A stretch of DNA of 64,000 nucleotides from Salinirubrum litoreum (GTDB taxonomy: Archaea; Halobacteriota; Halobacteria; Halobacteriales; Haloferacaceae), in the NCBI RefSeq assembly GCF_020567425.1, contig NZ_JAJCVJ010000003.1:124001-188000 (forward strand), written 5' to 3'. Below, in pieces: positions 93 through 10,907 of the stretch. Position 1 is the stretch's first letter. Each line of letters begins with the position of its first letter. Position numbers and translations under genes: made by a program. Below the pieces are notes generated by a model. The model had not been told where the DNA came from. It worked only from the letters and a program-made list of their open reading frames with translations, and did no database searches.

Positions 93-1112
93 CTAGAGCA
101 CCTCCGTCAGGCCCGTGTCTTCGTCGTCGGACGCCGTCGACTTCGATTCGCCGGCCATCCGAGTCCGGACGCGGGGGTTGAACACGCGGTCCATCCCCTG
201 TCCGAGCAGGATGAGTCCCAGCGAGAGCCCCATGATCGCCAGCATCGGTGCGAGCAACCAGTGGGCCGCACTCCAGGAGAACAGCGCCCCGCCGCTGTAC
301 GCGAAGTTGAGGGTGACGCCCCAGTTCTGCTTCGAGTACGGCAGGACGCCGAGGAAGAACAACCCGACCGAGGCGAACATGACGTAGCGTGCGGCGAACA
401 CGAAGTTGACCGTCACGTACGGCATGAGGTTCGGGATGATGTCCTTCCAGATGATGCGCGGCGTACTGACGCCCATCGTCCGGGAGGCCTCGACGTAGTC
501 GTTCTGCCGGATGGTGAGCACCTGCGAACGCAGGGACCGACCGAGGCCGGCCCAGTAGCTGATGTTGATGATGACGCCCAGGAGAATCGGGTTCTCCGGG
601 TTCAGCGTCACCGCCAGGATGATCACCAGCGGGAGCCCCGGAATCGCCATCACGAGGTCCGAGAAGGACATCAGCGCCTGATCGACCTGCCCGCCCTTGT
701 AGCCGGCGATGGTGCCGATGGCGACGGCGACGCCGGTCGCCCAGACGGCACCGGCGGTGATCATCAGCAGGATGTCCGGCGTCGAGTAGATGATGAGCGC
801 CGCCAGATCCGTCCCCGAGGCGGTCGTGCCGAGGGGGTAGTTCATGTTCTCGAACAGCATCAGGTAGCGCGGTGCCTGACTCGTCGAGGGTTCTCGCCAG
901 AGACCGAACACCGCGACGAGTGCCATCGCGAGGTACCCCCCGACGATGAGGAGTCCGAACCGGGTCCGCCAGTCGGCCCAGGCGACGAGCAACGGCGTCC
1001 GGACCCCGTCTTCGTACACCTCGCGGAGTCGCTCCCGTCTCGTCACGTCGGGTGCCGACGTGCTCTCGCTTCGCCAGTCGACGCCCGTGTTCTCGCTTTC
1101 AGTATGCTTCAT
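93..1112 (-). CDS. Opp/Dpp-type ABC transporter permease (DppC-like)
   Basis: Inner-membrane channel subunit of a peptide/oligosaccharide-type importer, 339 aa. A soluble N-terminal tail of about 50 residues precedes a first membrane helix. The cytoplasmic coupling motif of binding-protein-dependent permeases is visible as VEASRTMGVSTPRIIWKDIIPN around residues 207-228. The N-terminal half holds the long extracellular loop typical of DppC. It overlaps the upstream DppB-like gene by 14 bases, so the two are translationally coupled, and it is followed without a gap by the ATPase. The C-terminus is a polar, acidic tail. Substrate cannot be told from the permease; the nearby GH3 glucosidase makes a beta-glucoside as plausible as a peptide. 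Confidence 0.93.
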   Translation of the reverse strand: MKHTESENTGVDWRSESTSAPDVTRRERLREVYEDGVRTPLLVAWADWRTRFGLLIVGGYLAMALVAVFGLWREPSTSQAPRYLMLFENMNYPLGTTASGTDLAALIIYSTPDILLMITAGAVWATGVAVAIGTIAGYKGGQVDQALMSFSDLVMAIPGLPLVIILAVTLNPENPILLGVIINISYWAGLGRSLRSQVLTIRQNDYVEASRTMGVSTPRIIWKDIIPNLMPYVTVNFVFAARYVMFASVGLFFLGVLPYSKQNWGVTLNFAYSGGALFSWSAAHWLLAPMLAIMGLSLGLILLGQGMDRVFNPRVRTRMAGESKSTASDDEDTGLTEVL

Positions 1113-2103
1113 CGGAGTCTCCTGCGCTGATCCGCGGATCGATCTTGCTGTAAGTCAGGTCGGCGACGTAGACGCCGAGGACCAGTGCCACGGTGATGAC
1201 GAGGAAGGTCCCCATCATCAGCGGGTAGTCGTTGGACGTGAGCGACGAGAACAGGTAGTAGCCCAGTCCCGTGTACGAGAAGATCTGCTCTAAGATGACG
1301 GTCCCGCCCAGGCGGAACCCGAGCAGGAGCAGAAAGCCCGTGTACATCGGGAGGATGGCGTTCCGGGCGACGTACCGGGTCGCGATCCGCCGGTCCGAGA
1401 GACCACGCAACCGAGCGACCTGGACGTAGTCGTTGCCGAGTACCTGGATGCTGTTCCCGCGCATCGCCAGCGCCTGCCCGCCGATGGCCCCGAGCGTGTA
1501 CGAGACGATGGGCAGGATGCTGTGTTCCAGCGCACTCAACAGGAACGGGACGCTCAGTTCACGTTCCACGCTGGTCCCGACCGTTCCAGCCGTCGGGAGC
1601 CAGCCGAACTGGTACGCGAAGACGTACAGCAGGATGACGGCGACCACGTAGAAGGGCACCGACATCAGAGAGATGGAGATGCCCGACAGCACCTGGTCGA
1701 ACTTGGAGCCTTCCCAGTACGCCTGGAGTGACCCGAGGAAGATACCCACCACGAAGACGAGTACCGTCGAGACCAGGACCACGAATATCGTCCACGGTGC
1801 CGCCTTGGCGATGATCGCCACGACGGGTTCGTTGAGCGCGATAGACTCCCCGAGGTTCCCCTGTGCGAGCGAGAGCATGTAGTTCGCGTACTGCTCGTAC
1901 AGCGGGGCGTCCGGCCGGATGTTCTGCAGGTTGGCGATTCTCGCGTCTACCTCCTCGGCAGGGACGCCCTGCCGGAGGAGTGTCGCGCGCAACTGGGTGA
2001 ACGGACCGCCGGGGAGTAGCCGGATCAGCCCGAAGGTGAGCGACGCCACGAGGAAGATCGTGGCGAACACCCGGGCGGTCCGGCGGACGTAGTAGTTGAC
2101 CAT
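1099..2103 (-). CDS. Opp/Dpp-type ABC transporter permease (DppB-like)
   Basis: First membrane subunit of the same importer, 334 aa. It begins with the classic DppB opening, a short basic stretch (YYVRRTARVF) and then one long hydrophobic helix with PGGPF shortly after it. The coupling motif appears as YVQVARLRGLSDRRIATRYVARN near residues 226-248. About six membrane helices are expected. It lies 12 bases downstream of the binding protein gene and overlaps the following permease gene, the standard SBP-dppB-dppC-dppD order. Nothing looks broken. Confidence 0.94.
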   Translation of the reverse strand: MVNYYVRRTARVFATIFLVASLTFGLIRLLPGGPFTQLRATLLRQGVPAEEVDARIANLQNIRPDAPLYEQYANYMLSLAQGNLGESIALNEPVVAIIAKAAPWTIFVVLVSTVLVFVVGIFLGSLQAYWEGSKFDQVLSGISISLMSVPFYVVAVILLYVFAYQFGWLPTAGTVGTSVERELSVPFLLSALEHSILPIVSYTLGAIGGQALAMRGNSIQVLGNDYVQVARLRGLSDRRIATRYVARNAILPMYTGFLLLLGFRLGGTVILEQIFSYTGLGYYLFSSLTSNDYPLMMGTFLVITVALVLGVYVADLTYSKIDPRISAGDSDEAY

Positions 2104-2115
2104 TGCGTACTGTGT

Positions 2116-3918
2116 TTACTCGTTCTTCGGGGTCAGCTTGCCCTGCTTCGGGAGCCAGTGGGACGGCCACTTGACGCCACGGGCGGGGTCGTCTTCCGAC
2201 GGGACGTTCCAGTTGCCATCCGTGAGCCACGACTGGTCGAGTTTGCCGACCAGCCCGAGCACCGGGATGTTCTGGTTGTGGTGCCACGCGACGCGTTTGA
2301 CGGTCTCGGAGACCTCGCCCTCGTCCTGCGTGGTCGCGACGGTCTGGATCTCTTCGAGCGGGTTCAGGGTCATCTCGCCCGACCCGTCCATCGCGGGGAC
2401 GGTGTGTTCGCCGCTCGGGAAGTTGTGGCCGCCGTCGACGTCCGGGATGCGCATCTGCCAGCGGAGCGGGAAGTACGGGAACGACGAGCGAGCGCCGCCG
2501 GGGAGCCAGTAGAACGCACCCATCGTGAAGTTGGACTCGATGTACGACCCGAAGTAGTCTCCGCCGGGCAGTGACTTGATCTCGAAGTCGAAGCCGAAGG
2601 AGTTCAACTGGTCGACGACGGTGTTGGTCGCCGTCGTCCAGTCGGTCCACCCGGCCGGCGTCACGTAGCTTCCGCCGATGGTGTCGCCGTTCTCGTCTTT
2701 CCACGTGCCGCCGGACTTCGAGTAGCCTGCCTCACGAAGCAGCGAGGCGGCTTTCTCGGACTGGGTCGCGTCCATGCCGTACCCCTCGAAGTCGCCGTAG
2801 GCGTCGCCGAGCCAGCTCTCCTGGTCGCTCGGTGCGATACCGGTGATCTTCGGTGCCGGGTCTTTCGTGCGCGGCCCGGCGTTCTCGGCGACCTGTTGGC
2901 GGTTGATGACGTGTGCGACTGCCTGGCGGACCTTCCGCTTGCCGAAGACGGGGTCGTCGTGGTTGAACATGATCCCGTAGCCCCACTTCGCCGGAAGCGG
3001 GATCTCCTCGACGGAGTCCGGGAAGTTCGCGACGATCTTCGGCGGGGCGAACAGACTCGTGACGACGTCGAGTTCACGACCCATCAGCCCCTGCTGGAGT
3101 GCGGTGTTGTCCTGTCGGTTCAGCAGTTGGTACTCGGTGAACGTGACGTTGTCCGCGCTGTGGAACTCCTCGTTGCGCGAGAGCGTCCACGCCTGATCGC
3201 TCTTCGACTCGTAGCTGAAGGGACCGTTGCCGTGGATGTCCTCCTCCCACTGGAACTGCTGGATCGCAGAGGCCTCCTTGTCGAGGAACTCGTTGAAGAC
3301 CGGCTGGTAGCCGTGGATCCGCAGGTCGCCGTTCGCGAGCGTGTGCTTGATGATCTCCGGGTTCGACGGTCGCTCGAGCGAGATGACGACCGTCTTGTCG
3401 TCCTCGCCCTGTTCGACGCTCTCGGCGAAGTCCCAGAGCGTGGCGTTGGTCTTCTTCATCAGTCGGAACTGGGTGATGACGTCGCCGGCGGTGACGTCGT
3501 CGCCGGTGTCCCACGTCAGGTCGTCGCGGATCGTGAGTGTCACCGTCTCGCCCTCGAAGGACCATGACTCGAGGCCGGCCAGTTCGAACTCCTGCGTCTC
3601 GAAGTTGTAGGCGGCGAACCGCTCGAAGAGGTGGTTCCCGGCGATCCAGTCGTAGTTCTGGGTCCCCATCGGGTTCACGTGCATGTTCGTCGGGACGCCG
3701 TTGTTGGTCGCCCCGACCAGGGTGGCGTCGGAGACACTCGACCCTCCCTCGGTGCTGGTAGATCCGTCGTCCTCGCTCTCGCTCTCGTCCCCGCTGCTGG
3801 TGCCGGCGCCACCACCACCGCTACAGCCGGCGAGGGCTGCTGCACCGGAGACACCAGTTAGTTCGACGAAACGCCGTCGGCTAATCATATCGCTATAGTC
3901 GCCAGTAGGTCCTGACAT
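2116..3918 (-). CDS. ABC transporter substrate-binding lipoprotein (SBP family 5)
   Basis: Extracellular solute receptor of the importer, 600 aa, the usual size for family 5 (DppA/OppA type). The N-terminus has a Tat motif (SRRRFVEL, residues 13-20) and a lipobox ending at Cys32, followed by a Gly/Ser/Asp/Glu-rich linker, so it should be exported folded and anchored to lipid. The mature domain contains the family-5 pattern of a dehydrated 'LTIRDDLTWDTGDDVTAGDV' region. I chose the ATG at 3918 because a TATA-like box (TATTAAAC, 3947-3954) lies about 30 bases upstream; the alternative ATG at 3888 would shorten the leader by 10 residues. Some archaeal family-5 receptors bind oligosaccharides rather than peptides, so the ligand is open. 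Confidence 0.93.
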   Translation of the reverse strand: MSGPTGDYSDMISRRRFVELTGVSGAAALAGCSGGGGAGTSSGDESESEDDGSTSTEGGSSVSDATLVGATNNGVPTNMHVNPMGTQNYDWIAGNHLFERFAAYNFETQEFELAGLESWSFEGETVTLTIRDDLTWDTGDDVTAGDVITQFRLMKKTNATLWDFAESVEQGEDDKTVVISLERPSNPEIIKHTLANGDLRIHGYQPVFNEFLDKEASAIQQFQWEEDIHGNGPFSYESKSDQAWTLSRNEEFHSADNVTFTEYQLLNRQDNTALQQGLMGRELDVVTSLFAPPKIVANFPDSVEEIPLPAKWGYGIMFNHDDPVFGKRKVRQAVAHVINRQQVAENAGPRTKDPAPKITGIAPSDQESWLGDAYGDFEGYGMDATQSEKAASLLREAGYSKSGGTWKDENGDTIGGSYVTPAGWTDWTTATNTVVDQLNSFGFDFEIKSLPGGDYFGSYIESNFTMGAFYWLPGGARSSFPYFPLRWQMRIPDVDGGHNFPSGEHTVPAMDGSGEMTLNPLEEIQTVATTQDEGEVSETVKRVAWHHNQNIPVLGLVGKLDQSWLTDGNWNVPSEDDPARGVKWPSHWLPKQGKLTPKNE

Positions 3919-4073: not shown

Positions 4074-5393
4074 ATGCGCCCAGACGAGTCGCAGGGCCTC
4101 CCTCGCCGAAGCTTCGTTCGTGCGGCGGTGGCCATCGGTGGGACCAGCGCCCTCACGGCGTGTCTCGAACAAGAACAGAACAAACTCGCCAGCGACGGTC
4201 AGCAGGTGGCGAGCACCGAGGCGGAACCGGAGTTCCCACGTGGCGACCCCGAGTCCGTGCCCGACGGCCAACATCGGTGGGGCGAGTATCTCGTCCGGGA
4301 CGCACACGGGAACACGGTGCCGCCACAGCAACTCGTCGTCGTCGGTCTCGACTACGAGGGGTCGGCTCCCCCCACGGACGCGGAACGGACACAGGTCGAA
4401 CAGTCGCTCGCCCTCCTCGACCGCGCGTTCCAGTGGGGGACCGGCGGTAACGCGGGCGCGGCGTTCAACCGTGGACTCCTGTTCATGATCGGCTACGCAC
4501 CGAAGTACTTCGAGCAGGTCGGCGCGAGCGTCCCGGAGGGGTTGACGCCTCCAGAGACTGTCCTCGAGTCTGTCGGCGAGGACCCTGCCCACGCAGACAG
4601 CTACGACGCGGTCCTGATGATGACCAGCGACATCGGCTCCGTCCTGCTGGCGGCGGAGTCGGCGTTGTTCGGCGAGGTGGAGACGGTGAACGGGCTGCCC
4701 GTCGAGTCGACGCTCGAGGGCGTCTTCTCGAAGGCCGGCAGACACGTCGGCTACATCGGGAAGGGCCTGCCGGCCGACAAACTCGACAACGAGGACATCC
4801 CGGAGGACGCACCGCTCTCGATGGGGTTCAAGTCCGGCTTCCGGGACAACCTCCCGCCGGAGGACCGGGTCACCATCGACGACGGCCCCTTCGCGGGCGG
4901 GACGACCATCGCCTCCTCGACGCTCCGTATCGACCTCGACCGCTGGTACGACCAGACCCACCAGGAACGGACAGAGGAGATGTTCTGCCCGGCACACACC
5001 TCCGACGAGGTCGGTCCGGTCGGGGAGAAACTCGGCGGCGACAGCGGGATCACCGAGGAGGACGTCGATCGGATCGAAGACGACGCCGAGGAGTACGGAA
5101 AGATCGGGCACACACAGAAAGTCGCTCGGGCGCGCGACGACGACTTCCACGCGAAGATCCTCCGCCGGACCGAAGGGGTGGCCGACACCGTGACCGACGG
5201 CGCGGGCTTCCAGTTCAACTCGATCCAGGAGACGATGGCCGACTTCGTCGAGACGCGCGTGGCGATGAACCCCGACGAGTACGACGACGACCTCCCGGCG
5301 GAGGACCACGGGATCACGGACTATCTGGAGACGCTCCGTCGCGGCAGCTATCTCGCCCCGACGCGTGACGACTGGGCGCTCCCGGTGGTCTGA
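4074..5393 (+). CDS. Tat-exported DyP-type peroxidase-like protein
   Basis: 439 aa. The N-terminus has a Tat motif (RRSFVRAAVA, 11-20) and a lipobox-like LTAC ending at Cys30. The body resembles dye-decolourising (DyP) heme peroxidases in its second half. A GxxD motif appears as GFRDN (255-259), where DyP enzymes have GxxDG. It is followed by GGTTIASSTLRIDLDRWY (275-292), like the GGSYLxxRRIRMDLxxW strand. Then come His346 in GHTQKVAR, at the place of the proximal heme-ligand His, ILRR (362-365), and a GFQFNSIQETMADF segment (378-391) like the DyP 'LxFxxxQxDxxxxF'. The usual distal Arg is not obvious. It may be a diverged peroxidase or a heme-binding relative with another role. It is followed after 2 bases by the CRTAC1 lipoprotein gene, so the two form an operon. 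Confidence 0.72.
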   Translation: MRPDESQGLPRRSFVRAAVAIGGTSALTACLEQEQNKLASDGQQVASTEAEPEFPRGDPESVPDGQHRWGEYLVRDAHGNTVPPQQLVVVGLDYEGSAPPTDAERTQVEQSLALLDRAFQWGTGGNAGAAFNRGLLFMIGYAPKYFEQVGASVPEGLTPPETVLESVGEDPAHADSYDAVLMMTSDIGSVLLAAESALFGEVETVNGLPVESTLEGVFSKAGRHVGYIGKGLPADKLDNEDIPEDAPLSMGFKSGFRDNLPPEDRVTIDDGPFAGGTTIASSTLRIDLDRWYDQTHQERTEEMFCPAHTSDEVGPVGEKLGGDSGITEEDVDRIEDDAEEYGKIGHTQKVARARDDDFHAKILRRTEGVADTVTDGAGFQFNSIQETMADFVETRVAMNPDEYDDDLPAEDHGITDYLETLRRGSYLAPTRDDWALPVV

Positions 5394-5395
5394 CG

Positions 5396-7066
5396 ATGGG
5401 CAGAACGCTACTGACCGTTGCGGTGGTACTGCTCCTGGTTCTCGCTGGCTGTTCGGCGGCCCCCGACTTCGGTAGCGACTCCTCGGAGTCGGAAGCACCA
5501 CGCATCCAGTTCGAGGACGTCACGGCCGACTCGGGACTCCAGTACGAGGCGACCGGCAGCGGGGTGGGGAGCGGGAACTCCGGGGTGTACACCGCCGACG
5601 TGGACGACGACTCGTGGACGGACGTCCTCGCCATCGGCGGAGACGGCCCCACGCTGTTCGAGAACCGCGGGGGACAGTTCACCCGGAGCGACGCCCTGCC
5701 GTCGGTCGAAGCCGACATCAAGAGCGCTGTCTTCGTCGACGTCGACCGCGACGGCTACCCCGACCTGTTCCTGTTCGGCCGCGAGGGGACCGTCCACGCC
5801 TTCCACAACGACGGCGGGACCTTCGAACCGACCGACTACGGCCTCGGGAACCTGACGTACCCGCTCGGGGCGACCGCCGCAGACTACGACGGCGACGGCG
5901 ACACGGACCTGTTCGTCTACCAGTCCGGGTCGTGGCGCGACCGCAAGCCGGCGGGCTACTTCAACCTCCGGACGACGATCGAGTCCGACAACGGCAACCC
6001 GAACTACCTCTACGAGAACGTCGGCGGGGAGTTCCGGCGCGTCGACAGCGAGGCCATCGACGGCGACCACTGGAGTCTGGCGGCGAGTTTCGCCGACTTC
6101 ACCGGCGACGGCCGCCCGGACATCCACGTCGCCAACGACTACAACAACGACACGGTGTACGTCAACCGGGGCGACGGCACCTTCGACCGGCGATCGCTGG
6201 GCGGGTCGACTGCCCGCAACGGGATGTCGTCGGACGTCGCAGACGTGACCGGCGACGGGCGACCGGACGTGTTCGTCTCCAACATCTGGTTCCCCAGCCT
6301 GAAGGCGAACATGGACGACGAGCGATACGACCGCCTGAAGCGACTGCTCGAGTTCGTGATCCACTCGAGTCGGACGAAGGGGAACACGCTCCTCGTCAAC
6401 GGCGGTGACGGGACGTTCCGCGACGCCGCAGACGACTTCGGTGTCCGCCACGGCGGGTGGGGCTGGGCGGCCAGCATGACCGACTTCGACAACGACGGCG
6501 ATCGCGATCTGGTCCACACGACCCAACACGTCGTCAGGATCAACCGCACGGACCCGGTCTACACCTACCCGATGGTGTTCCAGTCGCGGAGCGCGTCGGG
6601 AGGGGAGGCGAGCAACTTCACGCGCGTGAACAAGAGCGTCAACGGCATGCGCGAGACCGACGGGCGCGGCCTCGCGACGCTCGATTACGATCACGACGGC
6701 GCACAGGAACTCGTCGTCGCCACGTACGACGCGTCGTTCGTGGTGTACGACAACGCGGGGACCGCCGACCGCAACAGCGTCCAGTTCCGCGTCACGACGG
6801 AGCGCGGGGCGACGGCACTCGGCGCGGTCGTCACCGTCACGGCCGGCGAGACCGAGCAGGTGGTCGCCCAGACGGCCAACGTCGACTACCTCTCGCAGGA
6901 CTCCCGGGTCGAACACGTCGGCGTCGCCGACCACGAGACGGTGACGCTCCGCGTCCGCTGGCCCGACGGGACCGAACGCGAGTACGAGAACGTCTCTGTG
7001 AACCAGCGACTCAGCCTGACGAAGTCGGGCATCGTCGTCACCGCGACCACGGACTCGGCCGACTAG
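5396..7066 (+). CDS. CRTAC1-family FG-GAP/VCBS repeat lipoprotein with ASPIC/UnbV domain
   Basis: 556 aa. A Sec-type signal with a lipobox ending at Cys19 (VLAGC) anchors it outside the cell. At least seven Ca-binding-like repeats follow, each with a DxDxDGxxD core: DVDDDSWTD, DVDRDGYPD, DYDGDGDTD, DFTGDGRPD, DVTGDGRPD, DFDNDGDRD, DYDHDGAQE. Together they should fold as a beta-propeller. The last 90 or so residues match the ASPIC/UnbV domain (ALGAVVTVTAGE, then LRVRWPDGTEREYENVSVNQRLSLT). The family is widespread but its biochemical role is not established. The start codon lies 2 bases after the stop of the DyP-like gene, so they are made together and may act together at the surface. Confidence 0.88.
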   Translation: MGRTLLTVAVVLLLVLAGCSAAPDFGSDSSESEAPRIQFEDVTADSGLQYEATGSGVGSGNSGVYTADVDDDSWTDVLAIGGDGPTLFENRGGQFTRSDALPSVEADIKSAVFVDVDRDGYPDLFLFGREGTVHAFHNDGGTFEPTDYGLGNLTYPLGATAADYDGDGDTDLFVYQSGSWRDRKPAGYFNLRTTIESDNGNPNYLYENVGGEFRRVDSEAIDGDHWSLAASFADFTGDGRPDIHVANDYNNDTVYVNRGDGTFDRRSLGGSTARNGMSSDVADVTGDGRPDVFVSNIWFPSLKANMDDERYDRLKRLLEFVIHSSRTKGNTLLVNGGDGTFRDAADDFGVRHGGWGWAASMTDFDNDGDRDLVHTTQHVVRINRTDPVYTYPMVFQSRSASGGEASNFTRVNKSVNGMRETDGRGLATLDYDHDGAQELVVATYDASFVVYDNAGTADRNSVQFRVTTERGATALGAVVTVTAGETEQVVAQTANVDYLSQDSRVEHVGVADHETVTLRVRWPDGTEREYENVSVNQRLSLTKSGIVVTATTDSAD

Positions 7067-7120: not shown

Positions 7121-9352
7121 ATGCAGACTAGTGGCAAGCAACCCTTGTATAGAGACGAGACTGCCGCCACGGCGAAACGCGTCGAAGACCTCCTCGACCG
7201 GATGACACTGGAGGAGAAAGTGGGCCAACTCGTCGGAACCTGGGCCGGCCACCTCGACGGGTTCAAGTCTATCGACGACGTCGCCGACGAGATCAGAGAC
7301 CACGGCGTCGGTGCCGTCGCGTCGTTCGGCTGGGGCGGTGCGGTGGATATGCGTCTCGAGGAGATCGTCGAGGACGTGAACCGCCTGCAGGAAGTCGCCC
7401 TCTCCGAGACTCGGCTGGGTATCCCGCTGTTGTTCAACGTCGACGCGGTCCACGGGCACGCGTACGTCGCCGAGGGGACCGCGTTCCCGAACGGCCTCGG
7501 CGTCGGCGCGATGTGGGACGAACAGGCGACAGAGGAAGCCGCGCGCATCACGGCGACCGAGGTCAGACGCAGCGGTGCCCACCAGAACTACTCGCCGACG
7601 TGTGACGTCGCCCGCGACCCACGCTGGGGCCGAACGTTCGAGACCTTCGGCGAGAGCCCCTACCTCTGCGGGAAACTCGCTGCCGCGAAGGTCCGCGGCT
7701 ACCAGGGCGACGGGATCGAGGACCGGTCGTCGGTGGTCGCCACGGCGAAACACTTCCCGGCGTACAGCGAACCCGCACGCGGCGAGGACGCCGCGCCCGT
7801 CGAAGTCTCCGAGTACCTCCTCCGGAACGTCTTCCTCCCCTCCTTCCTCGACACGCTGGACGAGGACGTCGAGTCGGTGATGCCCTCCTACAACGCCATC
7901 GACGGCGAACCGTCACACGGGTCGCGCCGGTACCTCACGGACCTGCTGCGTGGCACGCTCGGCTTCGACGGTAGTATCGTCTCGGACTGGGGCGGTGTGA
8001 AGATGCTCCACAACGACCACAGGATCACGACAGACCACCGCGAGTCGGTCAGACAGACCCGCGAGGCCGGCCTCGACATCGCCTCCGTGGACGCGATCGA
8101 CCACGCCGAGAACCTCGTCTCGCTGGTCGAAGACGGTGAAGTCGCCGAGAGCGTGGTCGACGAGAGCGTCAGACGCGTCCTCTCACAGAAGTTCCGGCTC
8201 GGACTGTTCGAGGACGCGTTCGTCGACGAGAGCGAGGCGAAGGACGTCGTCGGCTCCGAGACCCACCGCGAGGCGTCGCTCGATGCGGCACGGGAGTCGA
8301 TGACGCTCCTGAAGAACGACGATCTGCTGCCACTCGACGACGACGCGGACGTCCTCGTCACCGGTCCGAACGCGGACGACGTGGTCCACCAACTCGGTGG
8401 CTGGAGCGTCCCGGAGGACGACGGCACCGACGTCGTCACGATCCGAGACGGCATCGAGGGAGTCACGGAGGGCACCGTCAGCTACGAGCAGGGCGCGACG
8501 ATCAACGACGAACTCGACGTCGACGCCGCCGTCGACGCCGCCGAAGACGCGGACGTCGCCGTCGTCGCGGTCGGGGAACCGTGGTACCTCCACGAGTTCG
8601 GCCCGAGCGTGGACACCGGGACCGACCCCGACGAGTTCCCGAACCGCCACTCGCTGAGCCTGCCGCCGGCCCAGCGCGAACTCGTCGAGGCGATCCACGA
8701 AACCGGGACGCCGACGGTCGGCGTGCTCGTCACCGGGCGGCCGCTCATCGTCGACTGGATGGCCGAGCACGTCCCCGCGATTCTGCTGGCGTACTATCCG
8801 GGCACGATGGGCGGCCGTGCCGTCGCCGAGACGCTGTTCGGGGAAAACGAGCCGAGTGGTCGCCTGCCCATCTCGATTCCGAAGTCGACCGGGCACCTCC
8901 AGACCCGGTTCAACCACTTCCCGCACCCCACGCCGATCGGCCAGGAGGAACACCCGTCGTCGTACGACCCACTGTTCGAGTTCGGTCACGGCCTCAGCTA
9001 CGCCGAGTTCGAGTACGGCGACGTGACGCTGAGCGAGTCCACGATCGGCCCACACGAGACGACGACGGTGCAGGTTCCCGTCGAGAACGTCAGCGATCGC
9101 GCAGGCAGCGACGTGGTACAGGTGTACGTCACGAATCACGCGAGCGCACGCGTGACGCCGGTCCGGGAGCTTCGTGGCTTCGACCGCGTCTCACTCGACG
9201 GCGGAGCGACGGCGACCGTGGCGGTCGAACTCGCCGCGACAGAGTTCGGGCAGGTCGGCGCGGACGGCTCCCGACAACCGGACGCCGGCGAGTACTCGGT
9301 CCACGTCGGCGAGCAGACGGTCCCGCTGACGGTCGAGACGACCTACGACTGA
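7121..9352 (+). CDS. Glycoside hydrolase family 3 beta-glucosidase-like enzyme
   Basis: 743 aa with the full GH3 plan. An N-terminal TIM-barrel domain (about 15-345) contains KHF (210-212) and the nucleophile Asp289 in SIVSDWGG. An alpha/beta sandwich domain follows (about 380-620), and a fibronectin III-like domain ends the protein (about 650-740). It hydrolyses terminal beta-linked sugars with retention. There is no signal peptide, so it should work in the cytoplasm on imported oligosaccharides. An A/T-rich stretch (AAAATTATAAAT, 7086-7097) about 30 bases upstream of the ATG is a good TATA box. Its 3' end overlaps the convergent TrmB-family gene by 10 bases, which suggests that TrmB-type protein as its regulator. 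Exact sugar specificity cannot be read. Confidence 0.93.
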   Translation: MQTSGKQPLYRDETAATAKRVEDLLDRMTLEEKVGQLVGTWAGHLDGFKSIDDVADEIRDHGVGAVASFGWGGAVDMRLEEIVEDVNRLQEVALSETRLGIPLLFNVDAVHGHAYVAEGTAFPNGLGVGAMWDEQATEEAARITATEVRRSGAHQNYSPTCDVARDPRWGRTFETFGESPYLCGKLAAAKVRGYQGDGIEDRSSVVATAKHFPAYSEPARGEDAAPVEVSEYLLRNVFLPSFLDTLDEDVESVMPSYNAIDGEPSHGSRRYLTDLLRGTLGFDGSIVSDWGGVKMLHNDHRITTDHRESVRQTREAGLDIASVDAIDHAENLVSLVEDGEVAESVVDESVRRVLSQKFRLGLFEDAFVDESEAKDVVGSETHREASLDAARESMTLLKNDDLLPLDDDADVLVTGPNADDVVHQLGGWSVPEDDGTDVVTIRDGIEGVTEGTVSYEQGATINDELDVDAAVDAAEDADVAVVAVGEPWYLHEFGPSVDTGTDPDEFPNRHSLSLPPAQRELVEAIHETGTPTVGVLVTGRPLIVDWMAEHVPAILLAYYPGTMGGRAVAETLFGENEPSGRLPISIPKSTGHLQTRFNHFPHPTPIGQEEHPSSYDPLFEFGHGLSYAEFEYGDVTLSESTIGPHETTTVQVPVENVSDRAGSDVVQVYVTNHASARVTPVRELRGFDRVSLDGGATATVAVELAATEFGQVGADGSRQPDAGEYSVHVGEQTVPLTVETTYD

Positions 9353-10425
9353 GCGACGCCGTCGAACGAGACCGCCTCGAGTGTCAGTTTTTGCGCCTCG
9401 ATGTCCTCGTAGACCGCCCCCCAGCCACCGACGGACAGAACGTCGTCGCCCGTGTCGATCCACACGATTGCGTACGTCGAGAGTCGTTCGAGCGACGGCG
9501 TCTCGTCGACGAACACGTCGGGGTAGTAGATGTCGGTGAGTGTCCCGGTGACGGTGCGATACTCGCGTGTCGTCGTGTCGATCCCCGAGATGGTCACGGC
9601 GATGTCCGCTCCGTCGTGGTGCAGTGGGGTGATGTCGCGGATGAACTCCTTGAGACTGATGTAGGTCTTCGGCGTCTGCTGGGTCGACGACACCGGGTCC
9701 CAGGCGTACCAGAGACAGGTCTGGAAGTACCAGTGGTTGATAAAGGAGAGGATGTCGTCGTTGATGAGGATGCCGTAGTCCTCTTTGGCCCGTGAGTTGG
9801 GAGCGAAGAACGTCCGATGCCGGTCGAGAACGGCGAGAAACGGGCCGGGAATGTTGACGACGCGCATCTCCAGGCCCGTCTTCGGGAGGTCCCAGGACGC
9901 CGCGCGGCGCTCGAGATCCGGTTCGTAGTAGATGGCGACGTGGACGACGACGCCACGGTTGGCCGCTTTGTACAGATCAGTCTGGAGCGAGTCGAACTGG
10001 TCGGCGGTCAGCGCGACTTCGACCCCGACCTCCGCGTCGCGAATCTCCGACCGGGCGTGCTCGAGGACCGTCTCGGCGTGTTTGACGACCCCGACCCGGT
10101 GGTCCGTGAGGTCCGGTTCCTCCCAGCGGTTCTCGAGTTCCTCGGCGGCGTCGCTGAACAACTCCCCCCGTTCGCGCAGGTGCGTGAGGATATCGACGGG
10201 GTCGGACGGTTCCGCGTGCAGTCGGTCCTGGTCGATCGTCTCGACGAACCCCTTCGTCTCCAGCGAGCGAAGCGTATCGTACACCTGTGAGGTCGGCACC
10301 CCCGACTTCTTCGCGACATCGACGGCAGCGAGGCGACCGTGGTCGACGAGCGTCAGATACGCGTCGGCCTCGTACCCAGTGAGGTCGGCGTTTTCGAGCG
10401 CCTGCTTGAGCGTGTCGCGGTCCAT
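9343..10425 (-). CDS. TrmB-family transcriptional regulator
   Basis: 360 aa from the ATG at 10425 (an ATG at 10446 would add seven residues that are not family-like). The N-terminus MDRDTLKQALENADLTGYEADAYLTL is the canonical TrmB opening. The winged helix-turn-helix runs over about residues 15-75 (LAAVDVAKKSGVPTSQVYDTL, then LETKGFVE). A coiled linker (about 80-105) and a C-terminal TrmB effector-binding region follow. Family members sense sugars and act as repressors or activators of sugar uptake and degradation genes. Here the gene converges on and overlaps the GH3 gene, supporting a sugar-linked role. It may also control the importer at the left end. Confidence 0.9.
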   Translation of the reverse strand: MDRDTLKQALENADLTGYEADAYLTLVDHGRLAAVDVAKKSGVPTSQVYDTLRSLETKGFVETIDQDRLHAEPSDPVDILTHLRERGELFSDAAEELENRWEEPDLTDHRVGVVKHAETVLEHARSEIRDAEVGVEVALTADQFDSLQTDLYKAANRGVVVHVAIYYEPDLERRAASWDLPKTGLEMRVVNIPGPFLAVLDRHRTFFAPNSRAKEDYGILINDDILSFINHWYFQTCLWYAWDPVSSTQQTPKTYISLKEFIRDITPLHHDGADIAVTISGIDTTTREYRTVTGTLTDIYYPDVFVDETPSLERLSTYAIVWIDTGDDVLSVGGWGAVYEDIEAQKLTLEAVSFDGVAQS

Positions 10426-10907
10426 ACACAGTGGCTCACCGTCCACCCTATAATGTCTGTCGCACGTCTTCGCGGAACGTATCCGAAATCGTATCTTTCG
10501 AAGATGTGCAGGCGGCTCAGAAATACTCCGAATTATTACTATTTCGACGAAATTAGCAAGTGTCTTCTGTACGGTCCAGCAGCGTTCTAGCGCGCAACAG
10601 TGTTTTCAGTAGCCACCTAAATAATCATTTTCTGTATGTAACGGCGATCGGTGTGTAGTGACTAGATTAATACTTTGATCGACAACAGCGACTCCGCGAC
10701 ACCGGTCGGACTCCCGTGACTCGACGAGGGCGAGACGCAGTGACGGACGGTCTCCGAGCCAGATACTCCCCGTTCGCCGTCACCGACTCCGACCGAGTGA
10801 GACGTGGTGGTCTCGGCTCTGTCTACGCGACGTGAAGAACGGTTCTCGCGTCGAACGATGTGCAGTGCAGACGCTGCTTGGAACGGCAGGGTCGAGTCGA
10901 CCACGTC

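Follow-up and report, generated by a model that had tools for sequence, protein, structure and literature searches.

Conserved pairing of a predicted DyP-superfamily lipoprotein, DUF7405, with a CRTAC1 propeller in haloarchaea

The described proteins closest to the gene pair analyzed here are the DyP peroxidases, including the EfeB deferrochelatase (PF20628, TIGR01412), and the CRTAC1/ASPIC-UnbV FG-GAP proteins. In bacteria, a survey of hydrazine-synthase homologues places a CRTAC1 FG-GAP gene beside their cytochrome-c-peroxidase-like heme genes (PMC12758564). Like the haloarchaeal locus, these clusters join a CRTAC1 FG-GAP protein to a heme protein (a putative one in our case), with ABC substrate-binding genes near one clade; unlike it, their heme proteins are bacterial and of the c-type, not DyP (PMC12758564).

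In the window (the whole stretch of DNA analyzed, 64,000 nucleotides from Salinirubrum litoreum), the first protein of the pair is a clear member of the Pfam family DUF7405 (PF24152), scoring 372.9 bits against a curated cut-off of 27.1 in a profile search, but within that family its clade is a distinct one, linked to CRTAC1. With DyP and EfeB it shares a full-length profile alignment, the proximal His, the distal Arg pair, an F...Q motif near the C-terminus and Tat export; it differs in the loss of the GXXDG Asp, in being a predicted lipoprotein, in the remoteness of the similarity and in having no EfeU/EfeO partner in view. The second protein has the FG-GAP repeats and C-terminal UnbV_ASPIC domain of other CRTAC1/ASPIC-UnbV proteins, and is set apart from them by its steady partnering with peroxidase-superfamily lipoproteins.

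The two co-directional reading frames are separated by 2 bases, the TGA at 5391–5393 being followed by the ATG at 5396, as given in the preliminary description. That description had also recognized a Tat signal on the first protein, which is real (R11 R12), and had overlooked the lipobox that follows it; 65 of the 66 non-redundant relatives have the lipobox Cys30, and we predict from these N-terminal features that the DUF7405 protein is a Tat lipoprotein. The CRTAC1 protein begins with a lipobox of its own (LAGC), and profile searches assigned it FG-GAP_3 (7e-45, six stretches) and UnbV_ASPIC (4e-14), in agreement with its earlier reading as an FG-GAP/ASPIC-UnbV propeller. The signals on the two proteins support the export proposed for both.

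Coordinates of the gene pair, its neighbors and related features. Positions without a locus prefix are those of the window.
Feature	Position	Strand	Remarks
DUF7405 protein, DyP-superfamily, predicted Tat lipoprotein, 439 aa	4074..5393	+	H346, R364, R365 kept; Ser254 for GXXDG Asp
CRTAC1 FG-GAP/UnbV_ASPIC propeller, predicted lipoprotein with LAGC lipobox, 556 aa	5396..7066	+	
Family-5 ABC solute-binding protein (SBP_bac_5), divergent from pair	2116..3918	-	conserved context
ABC permease (BPD_transp_1)	1099..2103	-	conserved context
ABC permease (BPD_transp_1)	93..1112	-	conserved context
GH3 glycosidase, N-terminus without visible export signal	7121..9352	+	conserved context
TrmB-family sugar regulator	9343..10446	-	conserved context
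Vanadium-haloperoxidase-like protein beside CRTAC1	L126:10913-12382		Tat and lipobox-like N-terminus
Vanadium-haloperoxidase-like protein beside CRTAC1	L127:10752-12143		Tat and lipobox-like N-terminus
Vanadium-haloperoxidase-like protein beside CRTAC1	L171:9063-10358		Tat and lipobox-like N-terminus
Vanadium-haloperoxidase-like protein beside CRTAC1	L172:4338-5696		Tat and lipobox-like N-terminus
Solo DUF7405 of the window genome	L095:9284-10828	-	
ZIP metal transporter of the window genome	L095:8362-9219	-	
HEAT-repeat protein	L101:7554-8462		near pair or its transporter
HEAT-repeat protein	L107:12126-13034		near pair or its transporter
HEAT-repeat protein	L108:7105-8115		near pair or its transporter
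HEAT-repeat protein	L112:11610-12482		near pair or its transporter
HEAT-repeat protein	L118:7246-8196		near pair or its transporter

The pair had been put forward as a possibly unknown complex; its first gene is catalogued, DUF7405 being present in 261 of the 293 genomes of the order, while the idea of a conserved partnership is supported. The clade to which the window copy belongs is patchily distributed (31/293 genomes), and a CRTAC1 gene of the window type, found in 38/293, is present in all 31 of these genomes; the hypergeometric p for this co-occurrence, ~10^-35, ignores shared ancestry and serves as an indication of scale only. The two genes are adjacent in 30 of the 31 genomes. The exception is G013 (locus L125), in which CRTAC1 lies ~7 kb off and the DUF7405 protein falls inside the paired clade on the tree.

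At the 33 independent paired loci that were fetched, which take in named records besides the 293 genomes, the genes are arranged in tandem at 24, convergently at 8 and divergently at 1, a plasmid record. Adjacency is thus kept across all three orientations while the other neighbors change, which makes it better evidence for partnership than an operon in a single genome. We consider the DUF7405–CRTAC1 pairing well supported, and this neighborhood survey rejects the possibility, raised in the preliminary description, that the genes are neighbors in this genome alone. On the tree, paired and solo DUF7405s fall into cleanly distinct groups. Where a genome has both paralogues, CRTAC1 lies beside the paired copy only; in the window genome the paired and solo proteins share ~41% identity. 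The paired/solo split, the linkage to sugar loci and the alternative partner reported below all go beyond what was first noted.

Searches with single sequences and with profiles were near-silent or weak (a single DUF7405 sequence found no meaningful match among PDB chains, and the DUF7405 profile matched DyP structures at E 0.17), so profile–profile comparison was needed to relate the family to the DyPs. Alignment of 31 DUF7405 proteins with 12 bacterial DyP/EfeB proteins by hhalign gave Prob 98 and E 2.5e-13 over 362 columns, bearing out the remote homology suspected from the window sequence, and removal of the signal region still left E 1e-11. The match emerged once twelve DyPs were used, a single EfeB sequence as target giving no success. 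The Pfam model Dyp_perox_C scored above its curated cut-off at six genomic loci, tied to DUF7405 by comparing coordinates, including the paired one in G026. These comparisons strongly support, at the level of sequence, the membership of DUF7405 in the DyP superfamily. The EfeB equivalog TIGR01412 gave 10.9 bits against a threshold of 428, and the annotated neighbors of the window pair include ABC, GH3 and TrmB genes instead of efeU or efeO. An AlphaFold model of the DUF7405 protein built from three sequences had a pLDDT of 31, too low for its fold to be compared with DyP structures, and a scan of viral contigs found no relatives.

Conservation counted over the 66 non-redundant DUF7405 sequences shows that H346, R364, R365 and F381 are invariant (66/66) and Q385 nearly so. 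In the hhalign alignment R364 falls on EfeB R347. The path around H346 is shifted by a few residues, and its assignment as the proximal His therefore rests on invariance and spacing, the 18 residues from H346 to R364 being the same as those from H329 to R347 in EfeB. The motifs G255-F-R-D-N259, H346 and I362-L-R-R365 occur where the preliminary description placed them, and its claim that DyP landmarks are retained is borne out by the proximal His, by both distal Arg residues and by the F...Q motif. It does not hold for GFRDN, which had been listed among those landmarks but is not the DyP GXXDG motif: the profile alignment puts G251-F-K-S254-G255 on EfeB G232-F-K-D235-G236, four residues earlier, and D258 of GFRDN is Asp in just 29/66 relatives. 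In the true slot, position 254 is Ser in 41/66 and Ala in 25/66 sequences, and the catalytic Asp is absent from all of them. Some DyPs stay active without this Asp, Arg being essential.

The window pair lies between a divergent group of three ABC transporter genes and genes for a glycosidase and a sugar regulator, and identical gene order is found in Halomicroarcula rubra and Halapricum hydrolyticum. Window-type ABC transporter genes occur within ~10 kb at 23 of the 33 paired loci, with GH3 at 17, a HEAT-repeat protein at 13 and TrmB at 10 (totals counted by hand); five solo loci inspected over 20 kb contained no ABC transporter, GH3, HEAT-repeat or TrmB genes of these types. The pair is plasmid-borne in several species; on a Halobaculum plasmid it sits amid xylan and glucuronate genes, and in Natronosalvus it adjoins glycosyl hydrolases. 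The Halapricum locus comes from strain HArc-curdl7, which grew on curdlan; credit for this was given to GH81, GH161 and GH3 enzymes (PMC9726719), among which the GH3 of the pair locus may or may not figure. No one substrate is common to all paired loci, and since 10/33 have no window-type transporter genes nearby, the sugar link is a tendency.

A peroxidase-superfamily protein stands next to CRTAC1 in 34 of the 38 CRTAC1-bearing genomes. In four of them (G028, G030, G122 and G223) the slot is filled by a homologue of the vanadium-dependent haloperoxidases (PDB 4cit, E 6e-13), enzymes unrelated to DUF7405 in cofactor and family. The copies read keep the vanadate-binding K-x6-RP and SRxxxGxHxR motifs and have Leu for the acid-base His of PSGH. 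With the acid-base residue lost in both alternative partners of CRTAC1, the chemistry need not be of the classical peroxide type; the missing Asp and the missing His argue against classical peroxide activation. Such a protein may be a non-catalytic binder of heme or vanadate, or may catalyze a reaction that does not require the acid-base residue.

Our preferred model, proposed tentatively and with slightly less than even confidence, is a linked pair of surface lipoproteins, a heme-bearing DyP-fold protein and a CRTAC1 propeller, that carries out a redox step supporting glycan uptake. The DUF7405 protein is predicted to bind heme via H346; its distal residues would include R364, and Ser254 takes the place of the usual Asp there. 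The propeller would hold it on the outside of the membrane, most likely as a scaffold, as a maturation factor or by feeding it substrate. The pair would be deployed with the family-5 ABC transporter, the probably cytoplasmic GH3 glycosidase and the TrmB regulator. The extracytoplasmic step itself could be a modified peroxidase or oxidase chemistry, or the heme could serve in redox protection or sensing; in either case it would most likely support the uptake of oligosaccharides from plant- or alga-derived glycans.

An unlikely reading, though one to be taken seriously, is that the DyP fold is non-catalytic, binding heme or being heme-free, and that its role with CRTAC1 is to bind glycans outside the cell, to present them or to sense the redox state, without any peroxide chemistry. 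The replacement of the GXXDG Asp by Ser or Ala throughout the family fits this reading, as does the vanadium-haloperoxidase-like partner, likewise devoid of its acid-base His. The invariant proximal His, distal Arg and Arg365 would, however, be unexpected around an unused cofactor site, and the activity of some DyPs lacking the Asp also speaks against it.

The other chief functional alternative to a redox step in glycan uptake, prompted by the solo DUF7405 clade and the likeness to EfeB, is the acquisition of iron or heme: an EfeB-like DUF7405 protein would strip iron from heme or oxidize Fe2+ at the surface, with CRTAC1 as its docking partner. Solo copies (loci L003-L032, L130 and L131) adjoin P19-like Fe2+-transport/DUF7350 or SCO1-like genes at 23/30 loci and are candidates for a system in haloarchaea equivalent to the EfeB/P19 iron systems. 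In the window genome, the solo copy is followed 64 bases downstream, on the same strand, by a ZIP metal transporter gene, a further point in favor of the iron reading. No P19-, SCO1- or DUF7350-like genes were found in the 20-kb paired loci, however, where family-5 ABC, GH3, TrmB and HEAT genes recur, and the low EfeB equivalog score also weighs against it; for the paired clade we judge iron acquisition improbable. Shared horizontal transfer on sugar-utilization islands, with no direct functional partnership, would account for the patchy distribution, the plasmid-borne copies and the company of sugar-uptake genes, but is very unlikely given that adjacency survives in tandem, convergent and divergent layouts while other neighbors vary.

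Each component of the surface pair belongs to a catalogued family. Within a literature search that left most subscription journals outside its scope, we found no paper on DUF7405, no link of CRTAC1 or FG-GAP proteins to haloperoxidases, and no report of DUF7405 as an altered DyP family, of its conserved pairing, of the division into paired and solo clades or of the swap with a vanadium-haloperoxidase-like partner. That dozens of related species keep the pair suggests an undescribed surface redox partnership. More speculatively, and with considerable doubt, CRTAC1 lipoproteins may serve extracytoplasmic proteins of the peroxidase superfamilies as a general partner module. In haloarchaea, a propeller of this family would then join a lipoprotein with either a heme DyP fold or a vanadate haloperoxidase fold, each with its acid-base residue altered, in undescribed surface oxidation complexes that condition polysaccharides, or the products of their breakdown, for import.

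These comparisons provide a first functional hypothesis for two uncharacterized groups. In it, DUF7405 figures as a family of altered DyPs divided into two lineages, one associated with Fe2+-transport-like genes and the other with CRTAC1 and sugar uptake. For propellers of the CRTAC1 type it proposes a function open to experiment, that of partnering peroxidase-type proteins. Should the pair prove active, halophiles would have in it a surface redox system for the use of glycans. The HEAT-repeat protein encoded near the pair or its transporter at several loci is a possible third component. Locus L128 (genome G025) holds several CRTAC1-like genes without DUF7405, interleaved with PQQ-type beta-propeller genes in a different propeller-rich island.
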